This document shows positions 5,692 to 37,038 of a stretch of 37,038 nt of DNA, piece after piece (the first letter of the stretch is position 1; every line of letters starts with the position of its first letter). Source of the stretch: a virus; IMG/VR virus record IMGVR_UViG_3300027851_000073, positions 1-37,038 of that record; one strand, 5' to 3'. A program made the translations under genes and the position numbers. The notes beneath the pieces are model-generated. The model saw nothing but the letters and a program-made list of their open reading frames with translations, did not search any database and was not told the origin of the DNA.

Positions 5692-6014
5692 CCTACGATG
5701 TATTTGCCGATGACAGCGAGCACGTCGTCATCGGCTACCAGCAAATGCGCATCGGCTACATCGCGTACTGCCTCGGCATCCCCGCATCCACGCTCGCCGG
5801 CCTGCGGGATGGGTCGCTGGTGGCGGTGCCGAGGGAGCCGATCGCGCGCTATCAATTCGCACTGCAAAAGCGCCGGGAAGCGCGAGACCATCACGGCATA
5901 GACAGTTCCCACGCAATCGAAGCGACCGAAGAAGTCTTCGATGCGCGGAGTAAGGTGCTTGCTGCAATTCTCGCCGCCGCCGCCCCCGCGCCGAAGGGAG
6001 GGGAGCATGGTTGA
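5688..6014 (+). CDS. Hypothetical phage protein, 108 aa
   Basis: ATGA overlap with the previous gene. The N-terminal ~55 residues contain QMRIGYIAYCLGIPASTLAG, which could form a compact helix-turn-helix in which PASTLAGLRDG is the recognition-like part. The C-terminus is Ala-rich. Weak resemblance to small DNA-binding proteins only. It overlaps the next gene by 8 nt. Confidence 0.6.
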   Translation: MTYDVFADDSEHVVIGYQQMRIGYIAYCLGIPASTLAGLRDGSLVAVPREPIARYQFALQKRREARDHHGIDSSHAIEATEEVFDARSKVLAAILAAAAPAPKGGEHG

Positions 6015-10217: not shown

Positions 10218-10250
10218 GCAAAAACCCCCGCCGCTTCCGCGACGGGGGTT
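10218..10250 (-). terminator. Rho-independent terminator of the late operon
   Basis: AACCCCCG (10223-10230) pairs with CGGGGGTT (10243-10250), with an inner CGC/GCG stem around TTCC. On the minus strand the hairpin is followed by a run of five Ts (10224 to 10220). It lies beyond the last late gene and before attP, so it would end late transcription; the plus-strand side lacks a T run. Confidence 0.75.
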
Positions 10251-10319: not shown

Positions 10320-10355
10320 GACAATGGCCAGGCAAACCACTGCCTGGCCATTGTC
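10320..10355. repeat. Perfect 15-bp inverted repeat hairpin
   Basis: GACAATGGCCAGGCA (10320-10334) and TGCCTGGCCATTGTC (10341-10355) are exact complements around a 6-nt loop AACCAC. No T run on either side, so it is not a standard terminator. It could be a recombination-related site, an RNA-stabilising hairpin at the 3' end of the late transcript, or a protein binding site. The remaining DNA between 10018 and 10445 holds no gene that I can support. Confidence 0.7.
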
Positions 10356-10445: not shown

Positions 10446-10514
10446 TTATCGCGCCAGCGCCACCGCGATGACCGCCACGCCCAGCGCGTAGAGCAGGGCG
10501 AGTTGGAGGGTCAT
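10446..10514 (-). CDS. Putative 22-aa membrane peptide
   Basis: ATG at 10514 overlaps the endolysin stop as ATGA; the product is MTLQLALLYALGVAVIAVAL plus AR, one complete hydrophobic helix with a positively charged end. It is the last possible gene of the late operon. The coupling and composition suggest a lysis-associated membrane peptide, but it is very short and might not be real. Confidence 0.4.
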   Translation of the reverse strand: MTLQLALLYALGVAVIAVALAR

Positions 10515-11089
10515 GAGAGCGCGACCGCTTCCACCTCGTTGACCCGGCGCTCCCATCCCCGGCCGAAGGTGCTGTAGCTGGTCAGGCGCCGCAGGAACTT
10601 CCGCCGCGCGTCGCAGAGATCGACCACGACCGCCTTGGCCCCGGCGCGCTTCACGCCCTCGATCGTCTTCGGCCCGACAACGCCATCCTGCGCGACGCCG
10701 AGGATGGATTGCAGATCTCGCACTGCCCTGCCCGGCCCGCTGTTCACCGCGTAGTCGAACACGGCCAGATCGACACCGGCCGGTAGCTGGTCGCCCTTCA
10801 CGGCGTTCCAGTAGCGGGCGCGGTAGATCTCCCCGGCCTCGCCCTTGGTCAGGTTGCGTACATCGCCCTTAGTCACGGGCTTCCCGCGCCAGTCGCGTAG
10901 GGTGGCCAGCGTGATGCCCATGTTGGTCGCGCCGCCGGGGTCCGCCGGGTGATCGACATAGCCGCCTTCGTGCTTGAGCAGCTCGGTCAGGCAGGTGTCG
11001 AAGCGGTCTGGCTTAGTGGCCGTGGCGCCCACAGCCGACGGAGCAGCCGCAGGCGTCCCGCGCCCGCGCAGCCAGGCGAAGATGTTCAT
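10511..11089 (-). CDS. Endolysin, glycoside hydrolase family 108
   Basis: 192 aa from ATG 11089; a longer in-frame ATG at 11140 adds a low-quality basic extension. Residues ~27-115 are the GH108 lysozyme domain, with catalytic E41 in LLKHEGGYVDHPADPGGATN and MGITLATLRDWRG, then YWNAVKGDQLPAGVD. The C-terminal part (about 115-190) has the PG_binding_3 pattern: VFDYAVNSGPGRAVRDLQ, GVAQDGVVGPKT. It cleaves peptidoglycan glycan strands after reaching the periplasm. The N-terminal MNIFAWLRGRG is not a clear signal peptide, so release probably depends on the holin candidates encoded upstream in the operon. Confidence 0.93.
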   Translation of the reverse strand: MNIFAWLRGRGTPAAAPSAVGATATKPDRFDTCLTELLKHEGGYVDHPADPGGATNMGITLATLRDWRGKPVTKGDVRNLTKGEAGEIYRARYWNAVKGDQLPAGVDLAVFDYAVNSGPGRAVRDLQSILGVAQDGVVGPKTIEGVKRAGAKAVVVDLCDARRKFLRRLTSYSTFGRGWERRVNEVEAVALS

Positions 11090-11093
11090 GGCG

Positions 11094-11288
11094 TCACCGC
11101 TCCGGCAGCGCCGCGCGGACAAAGCAGTCCTTCGCCTCAAGTAGCTTTCTCAGACCTGCGCTCTTCTCGGCGCAGTCCGGAGTATTGGTGTCGATATGCC
11201 TAGCCATATCGCCGAATGGCTTGCTGACCGCCTGCAAGAAGGCGGGGAGATGCTCATAGTCGAAGAAGCGCATGATGGGGTTGGCCAT
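11094..11288 (-). CDS. Small conserved phage protein, 64 aa
   Basis: ATG 11288 preceded by GGAG (minus strand, about 9 nt upstream); the ATG at 11309 would extend it without a ribosome binding site. Sequence pattern MRFFDYEHLPAFLQAVSKPF followed by SAGLRKLLEAKDCFVRAAL is widely conserved next to phage lysis genes. It is a short soluble two-helix protein; its function is not established. Sits between the endolysin and the spanins. Confidence 0.8.
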   Translation of the reverse strand: MANPIMRFFDYEHLPAFLQAVSKPFGDMARHIDTNTPDCAEKSAGLRKLLEAKDCFVRAALPER

Positions 11289-33794: not shown

Positions 33795-35375
33795 TCAGAT
33801 TTTCGCCAAGAGGCTGGTGGTGATGCGAAGGGCGGTGGTGCGCGGGGCAAACCGGATCATCACGGCGTCGGCTAGGTTCGGCGACCGCGTGCCGTCCGGC
33901 GTCTTGTCCACCACGATCTTGCCGATGGTGCTGATCGAGTAGGTGGGCTGCGAAAGCTCGTTGCAGAGCGCCTGGCGGTTCGGCAGGTCGGCCGGGATCG
34001 TGATCAGCTCGTCGGCGATATACGGGGCGCCCTCGACGACCGCTCGGTAGGTGCGCTGGAACCGGGTCCTTAGCGCCCACCACGCCTGCGCCTTGTGGTT
34101 GGCGAAGAAATCCTCGTTCTTCCGCCCCTTCACGTCCTCTGCCTTAGGGGCATAGACAGCGCCGGAGCCTCGGAACGGCTCAACCTGCAGCCTGCGTGCG
34201 CGGGTCTCGTTGATGACCCTGGCATCGCCGCGCACACCAGCGCCGAGCCCGTCCGCATCGTAGTGGAATCCGTCATACCCTCGGTCGTCGCAGAGCATGA
34301 ACGCGCGCTGCACCGTGCCGAAAATGTCGTCGCCCTTGCCGGACCACTGCTCTAGCGTCTCGACCATCGGGCCGTGGGTGCCGCAGAACGCGTTCTGGTC
34401 CTTGCCTTCGTCCGCGACGTCCAAAGCCGCTGCGCGCTGGCCCGTGGGGATGAAGCCCAGCTTCCGGTGCGCGTCCACTGCGGCCTGCACCCAGGCGCTG
34501 GGAATGAGCACACCTTCGACCGAGGCGGCAAAGTCTATGTCGAGTTCCTGCGCGACCGTCACCGGGTCGAGTTCGGACACCTGCTTGGCATACCAGGCAT
34601 CGTCCTTGCGCGGATCGTCGCGCCAGTGAAAGCGAAACACCCGATCCGACGGCCATTCCGCAACCTTGCGATAGAACGGATTGCCGATGCCGTTAGCAGT
34701 GCTGACGTCAATCCGGCAGTTGGTTGTCTGCGATAGCGCAGCGTCCACCGTCTCGGGGCGCTCCAGGAAGGCGCTTTCGTCCACGAAGTAGAGCGACGCG
34801 CGATCGCCGCGCCCGATGTTGTCGCCGGCCTCGCCGGTGATGATGCTGCCCGTCTCGCGGAACATGATCCGCATGTGCGGCGCGTCGCTCTTGGAGTCGA
34901 AGCCGCCCCGGAATTCAGCGGGCAGAGTTTCGATGAACTTGCGTGCTTTCCAGAACAGCGACTTCGGCGCGCCAAGCTTATCGACGTATTCCTCTTTTCG
35001 CGAGCCGCAGCCGATCGCCACCCCCTCGTGAAACAGGCAGAGCGTGACCGAGAGCGCCATCGTCAGCCACGAAACGCCACTCTCGCGCGACTTTGGCGAC
35101 ACGCCCGGCCGGCGACTGCGCCAACTGTCGATCACCCAGTCGATCCATTCCACCTGGCGGGGGAACAGGATGAAGGGGATCAGCGAGGGGCGGCCGATTT
35201 CGACGTTGCGGGGATCTACCGTGCAACCAAAGTCTGAAATGAACTGCGCGGGATGATCTCGGTAATAAGTGCGTATGGCCGGAAGCGATTGTGGGTTCTG
35301 CCTGATTCTGTTCAGGCGTTCTACGCGCTCACGGAAAACCGCAGCGTAGTCAGGGTTCTTCCAGTCGAACTGCAT
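33795..35375 (-). CDS. terL: Terminase large subunit
   Basis: 526 aa, ATG 35375. Adenine-binding region FPRQVEWIDWVIDSW, Walker A SPKSRESGVSW (about 93-103), Walker B LYFVDES with E200, coupling motif STANG, and the nuclease domain with D319 in AALDVADEGKDQNAF and D373 in FHYDADGLG. It pumps DNA into the prohead and cuts it. The start overlaps the HNH gene by 26 nt. All main residues present. Length is typical. Confidence 0.94.
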   Translation of the reverse strand: MQFDWKNPDYAAVFRERVERLNRIRQNPQSLPAIRTYYRDHPAQFISDFGCTVDPRNVEIGRPSLIPFILFPRQVEWIDWVIDSWRSRRPGVSPKSRESGVSWLTMALSVTLCLFHEGVAIGCGSRKEEYVDKLGAPKSLFWKARKFIETLPAEFRGGFDSKSDAPHMRIMFRETGSIITGEAGDNIGRGDRASLYFVDESAFLERPETVDAALSQTTNCRIDVSTANGIGNPFYRKVAEWPSDRVFRFHWRDDPRKDDAWYAKQVSELDPVTVAQELDIDFAASVEGVLIPSAWVQAAVDAHRKLGFIPTGQRAAALDVADEGKDQNAFCGTHGPMVETLEQWSGKGDDIFGTVQRAFMLCDDRGYDGFHYDADGLGAGVRGDARVINETRARRLQVEPFRGSGAVYAPKAEDVKGRKNEDFFANHKAQAWWALRTRFQRTYRAVVEGAPYIADELITIPADLPNRQALCNELSQPTYSISTIGKIVVDKTPDGTRSPNLADAVMIRFAPRTTALRITTSLLAKI

Positions 35376-35847
35376 GAGACCGGGCAAACTCCCCGAAATG
35401 CAATGATGCAGCCGCCCGGTAAGCCCTCTCCGCGTCATCACGCGCGAGATATCGCCCGAGGTTCTTCTGGCGCCCGTTCACGCAAATTCGAGCTAGCCAC
35501 CTCTGCCGGTCGGGCTCAAAGCGAACGCCCGCAGCCCCGATGTTCTGGCAGTTCTGCTGCCTCGTTGCGGGCCTCAGATTGGCGATGCGATTGTCGCTCG
35601 GATCGCCATTGATGTGGTCAATCTCGTCGCCGGGATCCTCGCCATACATCATCGCCCAAGCCAAGCGATGCGCGGCGTATTCCTGCTGATTGATCTTCAC
35701 GCGGCGATAGGTGCCACGTCCGACCCTCGAACCCGCTACGTCACCCGCCTTGCGGTGTCCTCGGTTGCTAATCTTCCAGCGGAAGACCCCTGTTTCTGGG
35801 TCGTAGTCCAGGGCATTGCGTGCCGCAGCGATATCGATCGGCTTCAC
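35350..35847 (-). CDS. HNH/AP2 homing endonuclease
   Basis: 165 aa. N-terminal RNALDYDPETGVFRWKISNR and YAAHRLAWAMMYGEDPGDE, then the HNH signature EIDHINGDPSDNRIANLRPA (D77-H78, N86, N90), and an AP2/ERF-like DNA-binding domain from about residue 105: GVRFEPDRQRWLARICVNGR and NLGRYLARDDAERAYRAAAS. It is inserted between small and large terminase genes and its last codons run into the large terminase start. Classic location for a homing endonuclease. Confidence 0.92.
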   Translation of the reverse strand: MKPIDIAAARNALDYDPETGVFRWKISNRGHRKAGDVAGSRVGRGTYRRVKINQQEYAAHRLAWAMMYGEDPGDEIDHINGDPSDNRIANLRPATRQQNCQNIGAAGVRFEPDRQRWLARICVNGRQKNLGRYLARDDAERAYRAAASLHFGEFARSHAVRLEEP

Positions 35848-35849
35848 GC

Positions 35850-36341
35850 CTATCTCCCCTGAATGATCCGCTGGTATTCACGGGCGGCCTCAACCGGATC
35901 GTCGGTGGCGATGGTCACGGAAACCTGCGGCCCGCCATTGGGGCCGGTATGCTCAGTGGTGACGCGCTCGCCGTAAACCTTAGGGAGCATCTTCGAGAGC
36001 AGCCACTTGCGCGTGTCGGCCCGGAGCCGTGACCGCTGCACATGCTCGGCGTCCAGGACGGTCTCGACCGAACCATCCTGCTTGCGCCGCTCCATCCAGT
36101 CGTTGGACCCGTCGTCGCTGATTTCCAGCAGTTCCTCAGCCATAGAGTGCGCCTGAGCTTCGCGCGCGCGGGCGTATTGCGTGGAAAAGCCGTCCCGGTC
36201 CTCGATCACCCATCCGCGCACGGTGCGCTCCGAGGGCATGCGCTCATCACGACAAATCGATCGTAAGCTCTCACCCTCAGAAAGCCGCTCGCAGATTTCC
36301 TCCGCGATGGCCGGGGTGAATACCGTGGGCCGCCCTGTCAC
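35850..36341 (-). CDS. terS: Terminase small subunit
   Basis: 163 aa, ATG 36341 overlapping the NusG-like stop. GRPTVFTPAIAEEICERLSE, GESLRSICRDERMPSERTVR and GWVIEDRDGFSTQYARAREA form the N-terminal helix-turn-helix of Sf6-type small terminases; the centre QAHSMAEELLEISDDGSN and KWLLSKMLPKVYGERVT are also typical. It recognises the packaging site and activates the large subunit. The large terminase gene is separated from it by the HNH gene. Confidence 0.9.
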   Translation of the reverse strand: MTGRPTVFTPAIAEEICERLSEGESLRSICRDERMPSERTVRGWVIEDRDGFSTQYARAREAQAHSMAEELLEISDDGSNDWMERRKQDGSVETVLDAEHVQRSRLRADTRKWLLSKMLPKVYGERVTTEHTGPNGGPQVSVTIATDDPVEAAREYQRIIQGR

Positions 36342-37012
36342 GGCACCTTCTCCAGCTCGCCCTTGGTAAACTCGACCTCACGCTCACCGCCAAGCAGGCT
36401 TAGCAGCAACCGCACCCGCTTGCCCTCAGACAGGGCACAGACGCCCTGATGGCCGGCGAAGGGCCCGTCCATCACCCGGTACAGGCTACCGGCCTCAATG
36501 GCCGGGAAAGCCTCCGCACGGTCGTCTATGACGCCGTCGCCAGCTCGGCCCTGGGCTTGAAGGCCCTCTACGACCCCGCGACGAACCGGCACCGGCTTTT
36601 CCCCCACGGTGGTGAACAGGCGATGCACGCCCCGAGCGCCGAAGATGCGGCGCCATTGGTCTGCCTGAGGATCGAAGGAGACGAACATGTAGCGCGGGAA
36701 CAGCGGCTGGATCTCCGACCGCTCGGGCTCTCCGCGCTTCTTGGGCCGGCTGTACTTGACGAACATCGGCAGGAAGGCCCGAAAACCCATGCCGGCCAAG
36801 TCAATCAACGCTCGGTATTCAGCCCGGGAGTTGGTCTGAGCCACGAACCAGCGAGGTTCATAACGGCTTCCGCACGGTATCGCAGTGGGGGCACCCCCGG
36901 GCGATACCGTGCTCTGGGCCGAGAGAATGGCGGCAGGAATCGTTCCCGTCAATGGTTTTGTGCGGGAGATGATCTGGACATCGGAAGGCAGCGTCATGGC
37001 CCGGATATGCAT
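36338..37012 (-). CDS. Phage NusG / RfaH-like transcription elongation factor
   Basis: 224 aa from ATG 37012, with AGGAAAGGAC upstream; an earlier ATG at 37033 lacks such a site. Residues ~53-150 are an NGN domain (PRWFVAQTNSRAEYRALIDL, GFRAFLPMFVKYSRPKKRGE, EIQPLFPRYMFVSFDPQADQ, RRIFGARGVHRLFTTVGEKP). Residues ~173-223 are a KOW domain (SLYRVMDGPFAGHQGVCALS, KRVRLLLSLLGGEREVEF). The first 52 residues are an unusual extension. NGN binds RNA polymerase clamp; RfaH-type paralogues suppress pausing and termination at chosen operons. It is the first gene of the late operon here, so an operon-specific antiterminator of the late region is the natural guess. The gene contains a perfect 12-bp hairpin near its start. 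Confidence 0.9.
   Translation of the reverse strand: MHIRAMTLPSDVQIISRTKPLTGTIPAAILSAQSTVSPGGAPTAIPCGSRYEPRWFVAQTNSRAEYRALIDLAGMGFRAFLPMFVKYSRPKKRGEPERSEIQPLFPRYMFVSFDPQADQWRRIFGARGVHRLFTTVGEKPVPVRRGVVEGLQAQGRAGDGVIDDRAEAFPAIEAGSLYRVMDGPFAGHQGVCALSEGKRVRLLLSLLGGEREVEFTKGELEKVP
36872..36912 (-). promoter_or_regulatory. Perfect 12-bp RNA hairpin in the NusG-like gene
   Basis: GCACGGTATCGC (36872-36883) and GCGATACCGTGC (36901-36912) are exact complements; the inside carries GGGG-GTGC-CCCC, giving a second short stem. In the transcript this forms a long two-level hairpin within codons ~34-47, inside the non-conserved N-terminal extension of the protein. Such an element could be an attenuator, an autoregulatory site or the loading signal for the encoded factor. 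Confidence 0.7.
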
Positions 37013-37038
37013 GGTCGTCCTTTCCTGGATCATTGTCC

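Follow-up and report, generated by a model that had tools for sequence, protein, structure and literature searches.

Can a NusG paralogue take the place ahead of the late genes that Q takes in lambdoid phages, and could a hairpin inside its own gene recruit it? This question is raised by one end of the linear virus contig IMGVR_UViG_3300027851_000073 from IMG/VR, whose 37038 bases were analysed as a whole and are called the window here. In the phages known to control late genes by antitermination, Q-type proteins do so, with N/nut or put acting for early genes; NusG paralogues have been described from operons for capsules and antibiotics and from those of plasmids. The sequence-only reading of the window had placed a gene for a NusG paralogue (nusG) at the head of a minus-strand operon of about 26 kb, and had proposed an inverted repeat in that gene as a possible recruitment element of a NusG-type antitermination system.

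The operon was confirmed, with packaging, head, tail and endolysin genes spanning 36.3 to 10.5 kb. The minus-strand order after the terminase small subunit gene (terS) is HNH, large subunit (TerL), portal, head, sheath, tape-measure, baseplate and endolysin, and the plus strand carries RecE, RecT and integrase; no repressor or replication gene was recognised among the ORFs scanned in the window. The stop codon of nusG and the GTG of terS overlap by 4 nt and form a direct junction without a gap. The ATG of nusG at 37012 follows AGGAAAGGA, a good ribosome-binding sequence, and another in-frame ATG is found at 37033. Only 26 nt of the record lie ahead of ATG 37012; any promoter, leader or preceding genes fall beyond its end, and nusG may be read either as the first late gene or as the last early gene. 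The sole strong intrinsic terminator on the late strand of the window lies past the endolysin gene (10248-10225) and is the probable end of the late operon; the scan of the window found no strong terminator within the operon that would need read-through. Between the convergent integrase and endolysin genes (window 10320-10355) an inverted repeat was also seen, with perfect 15-bp arms, a loop of 6 nt and no T-tract on either strand. The features are listed in Table 1.

Table 1. Positions of the features discussed, in the window (plain numbers) and in the other phage sequences (numbers preceded by the sequence handle)
Feature	Position	Strand	Basis
NusG paralogue, 224 aa	36338..37012	-	PF02357 52.4 bits, phrog_6386, sequence
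N-terminal extension, 54 residues	36851..37012	-	residues ahead of NGN tryptophan
12-bp perfect hairpin with inner 4-bp stem, in coding sequence	36872..36912	-	
Second predicted hairpin, immediately 3' of the first	36840..36864	-	
NGN domain	36563..36853	-	PF02357
C-terminal KOW-like region	36341..36499	-	alignment; predicted strands (low confidence)
Terminase small subunit (terS)	35850..36341	-	phrog_1482 5.6e-49
HNH gene, between TerL and terS	35350-35847	-	
Terminase large subunit (TerL)	33795..35441	-	profile match
Endolysin, final gene of the late block	10511..11140	-	
Strong intrinsic terminator, CCCCCGTCGCGGAAGCGGCGGGGG TTTTT, 3' of the endolysin gene	10225..10248	-	terminator scan
Covarying RNA element, six phages	L194:5598-5660; L201:3507-3569; L200:2617-2680; L202:2998-3060; L203:3975-4034; L193:5608-5669		
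Conserved block TTTCACCCGCCGGGNGGCTTGTG, between nusG and terS, ppBjS10J-1 group	L082:6780-6802; L087:5828-5850; L088:5828-5850; L089:1636-1658; L090:5852-5874		

The NGN domain scored 52.4 bits with PF02357 against a cut-off of 22.2, which places the protein in the NusG/Spt5 superfamily. It also matched PHROG 6386, 'transcription antiterminator', over residues 58-229 (6.4e-17), a profile that matches housekeeping NusG as well. An NGN and a KOW domain had both been claimed. The former stood firmly; the latter is suggested by alignment and by low-confidence strands, Pfam giving no KOW match in the window NusG protein. The full-length NusG/RfaH models span residues 63-225 of the protein (P0001) and align its C-terminus with KOW, and the structure prediction gave a beta-rich C-terminal domain at low confidence (mean pLDDT 47). 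The N-terminal extension was borne out too, with its length corrected from 52 to 54 residues before the NGN tryptophan, as compared with 3 in RfaH and 8 in NusG.

The scores with the models of the known families stayed far below those required: 31 bits against 135.7 for housekeeping NusG (TIGR00922), 23.2 against 125 for LoaP (NF033641), 47.8 against 100 for UpxY (NF033644) and 73.2 against 144.5 for RfaH (TIGR01955), the last being the best full-length model. At the ops-contact, HTTT and CTD-interface positions of RfaH the protein carries K10N, Q13A, H20D, QWRR in place of HTTT and F130C, and keeps R16 and R73. No Q homologue was found among the window ORFs scanned, which represent a part of the genome, and the window nusG matched phrog_6386 only. 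By these sequence tests the protein is not RfaH, LoaP, UpxY, housekeeping NusG or Q. Its nearest relatives by identity are paralogues from exopolysaccharide (EPS) operons, with 33 % identity to that of Sulfitobacter. The searches of IMG/VR, GTDB contigs, phages and plasmids yielded no close relative; the GTDB contigs gave only a housekeeping NusG, and the plasmids EPS-operon paralogues and RfaH.

With the window protein and the recovered relatives as queries, diverged NusG paralogues, often annotated as 'hypothetical', were found to recur 0-3 genes ahead of the terminase genes in unrelated phages. This slot, in the position of Q, is filled by nusG in Bradyrhizobium ppBjS10J-1 and four IMG/VR relatives, Synechococcus MinM1, Labrenzia V1, Microcystis yong2 (record ends joined), Nostoc Nsp-JY10, Sinorhizobium phi2LM21 and phi3LM21, Rhizobium PPF1, Agrobacterium Rivra, Mesorhizobium MseS-P1 and the IMG/VR virus G007, which has the same TerL type as the window. 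The NusG paralogue of S-N03 is located outside the slot. The slot proteins share about 16-27 % identity with the window protein and the paralogue phylogeny gave no resolved tree, so independent capture and rapid divergence fit these data alike. In Hafnia yong1 and E. coli 689R2, with the TerL type of the window (59 %), the Q position holds an annotated Q followed by lysis genes. Among 80 TerL relatives a single one encoded an NGN protein above the cut-off, and among 80 TerS relatives none did, many of these records being fragments; this makes nusG an isolated acquisition in the window phage.

The slot proteins also share a long N-terminus. Counted from annotated or ORF starts, the extensions comprise 27-57 residues in ten Q-slot proteins versus 3-17 in RfaH, NusG, S-N03 and two paralogues from exopolysaccharide operons. 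In the ppBjS10J-1 group pN of nusG is far below pS, in the extension and the remainder alike, pointing to amino-acid constraint. Some diverged phage extensions start alike, with MMQHRG..G..IAT or MMQHK..G.S (L193:4869, L194:4857, L202:2289). The window has one part of the Q-slot module: the gene immediately ahead of terminase encodes an NGN paralogue whose N-terminal extension is long. The other part, a covarying RNA element and a terminator between nusG and terS, was found in other phages and is missing from the window.

In the 7.1 kb of nusG-to-terminase gaps, whose limits were chosen by the analyst and which include small ORFs, 4 strong intrinsic terminators were present, in comparison to 3 in 294 kb elsewhere (p 1e-5); under the strict scan a terminator follows 4 of the 11 Q-slot genes. 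The gaps of phi2LM21 and Nsp-JY10 have about 37 nt in common at approximately 90 % identity (BLAST E 4e-5), the NusG proteins of the two phages being 28 % identical. The BLAST query was the 241-nt phi2LM21 gap, in which roughly the final nine nt of nusG are included; it also matched PPF1, phi3LM21, Rivra and MseS-P1, where in each case a NusG gene immediately precedes the match and terminase genes come after it. These six phages, five rhizobial and one of Nostoc, contain an untranslated, covarying RNA element whose core lies 99-162 nt past the nusG stop codon. It is built of two stacked helices (outer CCYTGA/TCARGG, inner variable) followed by the single-stranded GTGCNNNAGCTATG, and an intrinsic terminator stands directly 3' of it in 5 of the 6, none being visible in MseS-P1. 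RNAalifold recovered the structure unaided. Of its 11 pairs, with 95.4 % of cells paired, 4 show compensatory changes, a level reached by 0 of 500 shuffles. The covariance model gave one strong match per phage, at 69-84 bits, in the same six phages from which it was built, the next best match scoring 14.8 bits. No Rfam family corresponds to the element.

In phages of the ppBjS10J-1 group the space from nusG to terS holds a different signal, the TTTCACCCGCCGGGNGGCTTGTG block. It is unrelated to the covarying element, has 30 of 40 columns invariant versus 2 in a median window of columns, and contains GGGNGGCTTGTG, with the GG-N8-TG spacing of ops. In L088 a match to RF00519 (alphaproteobacterial MmgR/suhB sRNA) starts at 5847, at the end of the block, and ends in a terminator. 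The block might act as a promoter whose short transcript is terminated, to be compared with pR'-tR' of lambda, where a promoter gives such a transcript, or it might be a site of pausing and loading. In the nusG-terS gap of Microcystis yong2 (L096:4459-4718 joined to L097:1-70) CCCCGCG..CGCGGGGTTTTT was noticed, with two TGCGAAAGC motifs in the loop that evoke the unpaired stretch of the covarying element.

Both the covarying element and the TTTCACCCGCCGGGNGGCTTGTG block are absent from the window, where model R1 gives chance scores only. As the window also has no nusG-terS gap, the signal, if the logic is the same, should lie in the leader beyond the record or inside genes. Near matches to the ops element occurred in the window only at chance level, and the upstream leader falls beyond the record. 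Near the 3' end of nusG, at 36379-36391 of the minus strand, stands GGCGGTGAGCGTG, which equals E. coli ops (GGCGGTAGCGTG) plus one extra base. It stands some 40 nt ahead of terS and, as it doubles as the codons for GGER in the KOW region, may be a coincidence.

The explanation that we favour, judging from the sequence comparisons, is that the window nusG product probably acts as an antitermination or processivity factor of the late operon. A phage-specific NusG paralogue would fill the late-antiterminator slot and would be made at the end of the early or the start of the late programme; its NGN domain would bind the host RNA polymerase and suppress pausing and termination, so that the packaging-head-tail-lysis operon of about 26 kb could be transcribed to its end. 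Polymerase binding, the antitermination or anti-pausing activity and the timing are proposed here by analogy with the NusG family. In related architectures the paralogue would be loaded by a cis element located where the late operon begins, and the polymerase would be carried past the terminator there. In the window phage this element might lie upstream of the record end or be embedded in nusG, the hairpin pair 36840-36912 being the best candidate; any role of the hairpin is likewise conjectural. Several findings weigh against the explanation: the window has no covarying element, no nusG-terS gap and no strong terminator to be read through within the operon, NGN proteins are almost absent from the TerL and TerS relatives, the paralogue phylogeny gave no resolved tree, and in the strict scan terminators follow only 4 of 11 Q-slot genes. 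The protein family, the position of the gene, the recurrence of the slot, the covarying element with its terminator elsewhere and the hairpin as a physical feature are observations. The earlier claim of NusG-type rather than Q-type late control gained from the recurrence before terminase, from the cis element with terminator and from Q standing there in phages with a similar TerL, and it extends to the window from those other phages. We think that the factor resembles Q in position and LoaP or RfaH in protein type, and is a member of none of these.

The inverted repeat itself was found as described, ahead of NGN: its arms (36872-36883 and 36901-36912) are complementary in 12 of 12 positions, and the fold is of -34 kcal/mol (z -4.3). 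Perfect stems of at least 12 bp with a loop of up to 45 number 2 in the 37 kb versus 0.3 on average over ten Markov sequences, and among synonymous recodings of the region 3 in 3000 reach 12 bp and 1 in 300 fold as well. The frame of nusG has its best coding signal in the first third of the extension and its worst in the hairpin block, with the minimum exactly across the hairpin. The in-gene hairpin is therefore probably not mere noise, as judged post hoc from a single genome. It is translated, there being no ATG, GTG or TTG between it and the first conserved NGN residue. A terminator function was rejected, as it has no T-tract, and no Rfam match was found in the window. Comparable hairpins were found in none of the other phage nusG genes, that of G007 having 9 bp, about the chance level, and the collections searched hold no close relative of the window nusG in which the stem could be compared.

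We give close to an even chance to the hairpin being a local feature with no part in antitermination: it might control the translation of nusG, serve a dimeric protein as operator or be left over from a recombination junction in the mosaic. That it is an inverted repeat, lies in a linker under little constraint with a weak coding signal and is seen in one genome only fits this. The operator version is weakened by the arm, which as a repeated site occurs 8 times in the window versus 6.6 expected, hence with no further copies beyond chance, and ordinary control at the start codon is unlikely for a stem lying 100 nt inside the gene.

As regards the protein, a more general role appears rather unlikely, namely that of a NusG competitor which blocks Rho-dependent termination or alters host transcription with no dedicated site in the late operon. 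In this family RNA polymerase can be bound by the NGN domain alone, as is established for NusG and RfaH, and no cis site was found in the window. PMC7819879 describes loss of the Rho interaction as an early step of paralogue evolution, which was counted in favour of this role. The recurrent position before terminase and the linked cis element and terminator elsewhere, however, indicate a local target.

That the hairpin is the cis recruitment element, acting like the LoaP RNA or as put-like twin hairpins, we consider unlikely, and the earlier proposal to this effect was not supported. Its non-random stem (z -4.3, Markov and recoding tests) would suit the role, as would the coding signal being weakest exactly there, expected under nucleic-acid constraint, the second hairpin directly after it and the lack of an untranslated downstream gap to house an element. 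Directly 3' of the hairpin, GTGCGGAAGCCGTTATG (GTGCGGAAGC..TATG) is similar to GTGCNNNAGCTATG, the part of the covarying element that does not vary. The pattern GTGCGGAAGC..TATG, picked after seeing the site, has one match in the window versus 0.04 expected; in a blind gapped profile scan the motif came only sixth in the window, with a score of 9.6 as against best scores of 10-19 in shuffled sequence, and the likeness is treated as a lead. Against recruitment stand the other phage nusG genes, which lack the stem, the fact that no relative shows it conserved, the translating ribosomes, which would unfold it, and the loop, which is UGC inside GGGG/CCCC in the reading frame and not of the UNCG type. 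The covariance model gives the hairpin 0 bits, by which it was rejected as a copy of the covarying element, and it lies on the other side: within nusG before NGN, while the element of the other phages is downstream of nusG. The hairpin of the window nusG is real, and a recruitment role is possible for it as a candidate. More far-reaching, and distinctly improbable, is the idea that NusG paralogues are widespread undescribed late antiterminators of phages, each loaded by an element of its own, DNA or RNA, where the late operon starts, and that in this compact phage the element moved into the coding sequence of nusG as a twin hairpin, with translation and loading of the regulator interfering. 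A captured host NusG paralogue with no regulatory role in the phage is very unlikely, for despite its sporadic presence (1/80 TerL and 0/80 TerS relatives) and its identity to the Sulfitobacter paralogue, many unrelated phages fill the same slot and pN is far below pS in the ppBjS10J-1 group.

The favoured late-operon factor may be compared with known systems. The put RNA of HK022, which acts on RNA polymerase without a phage protein, also combines structured RNA and intrinsic terminators in phage antitermination, but in the six phages with the covarying element its neighbour is a gene for a NusG paralogue. The loading site of lambda Q is a DNA element at the late promoter. Q with qut and tR' (PMC7171158) shares the slot before the late genes, and in related phages the terminator between regulator and late genes; Q is, however, an unrelated protein, and in the six phages just named the element is a covarying RNA. 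GafZ of the Caulobacter gene transfer agent likewise serves as antiterminator for a phage-like structural cluster, but it is not a NusG paralogue; it works with NusA, NusG and NusE and loads at the promoter (PMC11150451).

Among NusG paralogues, LoaP of Bacillus velezensis also serves long operons and is recruited via a UNCG-type RNA hairpin, which belongs to a leader that is not translated and that has a terminator farther downstream (PMC12691694), whereas the window gene is viral, reaches 23 bits versus the cut-off of 125 and has its hairpin in coding sequence. RfaH with ops (PMC6391919, PMC7819879) shares the PLFP.Y.FV.FDP motif, the long-operon logic and TIGR01955 as the best model; the window protein attains half of the equivalog cut-off, and the rfaH gene stands by itself, its product acting in trans. 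UpxY of Bacteroides (PMC7819879) is, as the window protein may be, encoded at the head of its own target operon, but its targets are capsule operons, and it works in the leader that precedes its gene.

Phage NusG paralogues as late regulators, and the layout of NusG, RNA element, terminator and terminase, were described neither in PMC7819879, PMC6391919, PMC12691694, PMC11150451, PMC7593976 and PMC5537653 nor in the literature reached by full-text searches, weak evidence as subscription literature is mostly outside these. The main text of PMC5537653, which reports phi2LM21 and phi3LM21, leaves NusG unmentioned. The recurrent layout of a NusG paralogue, covarying RNA, terminator and terminase provides a defined, minimal and testable model of how NusG paralogues are targeted, and suggests that phages have repeatedly substituted a host-type elongation factor for Q. 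A record named 'Microcystis phage MaAM05' (L195, MW495066.1 34257-42859) carries secE-nusG-rplK-rplA together with biosynthetic genes and looks like a misfiled bacterial contig.
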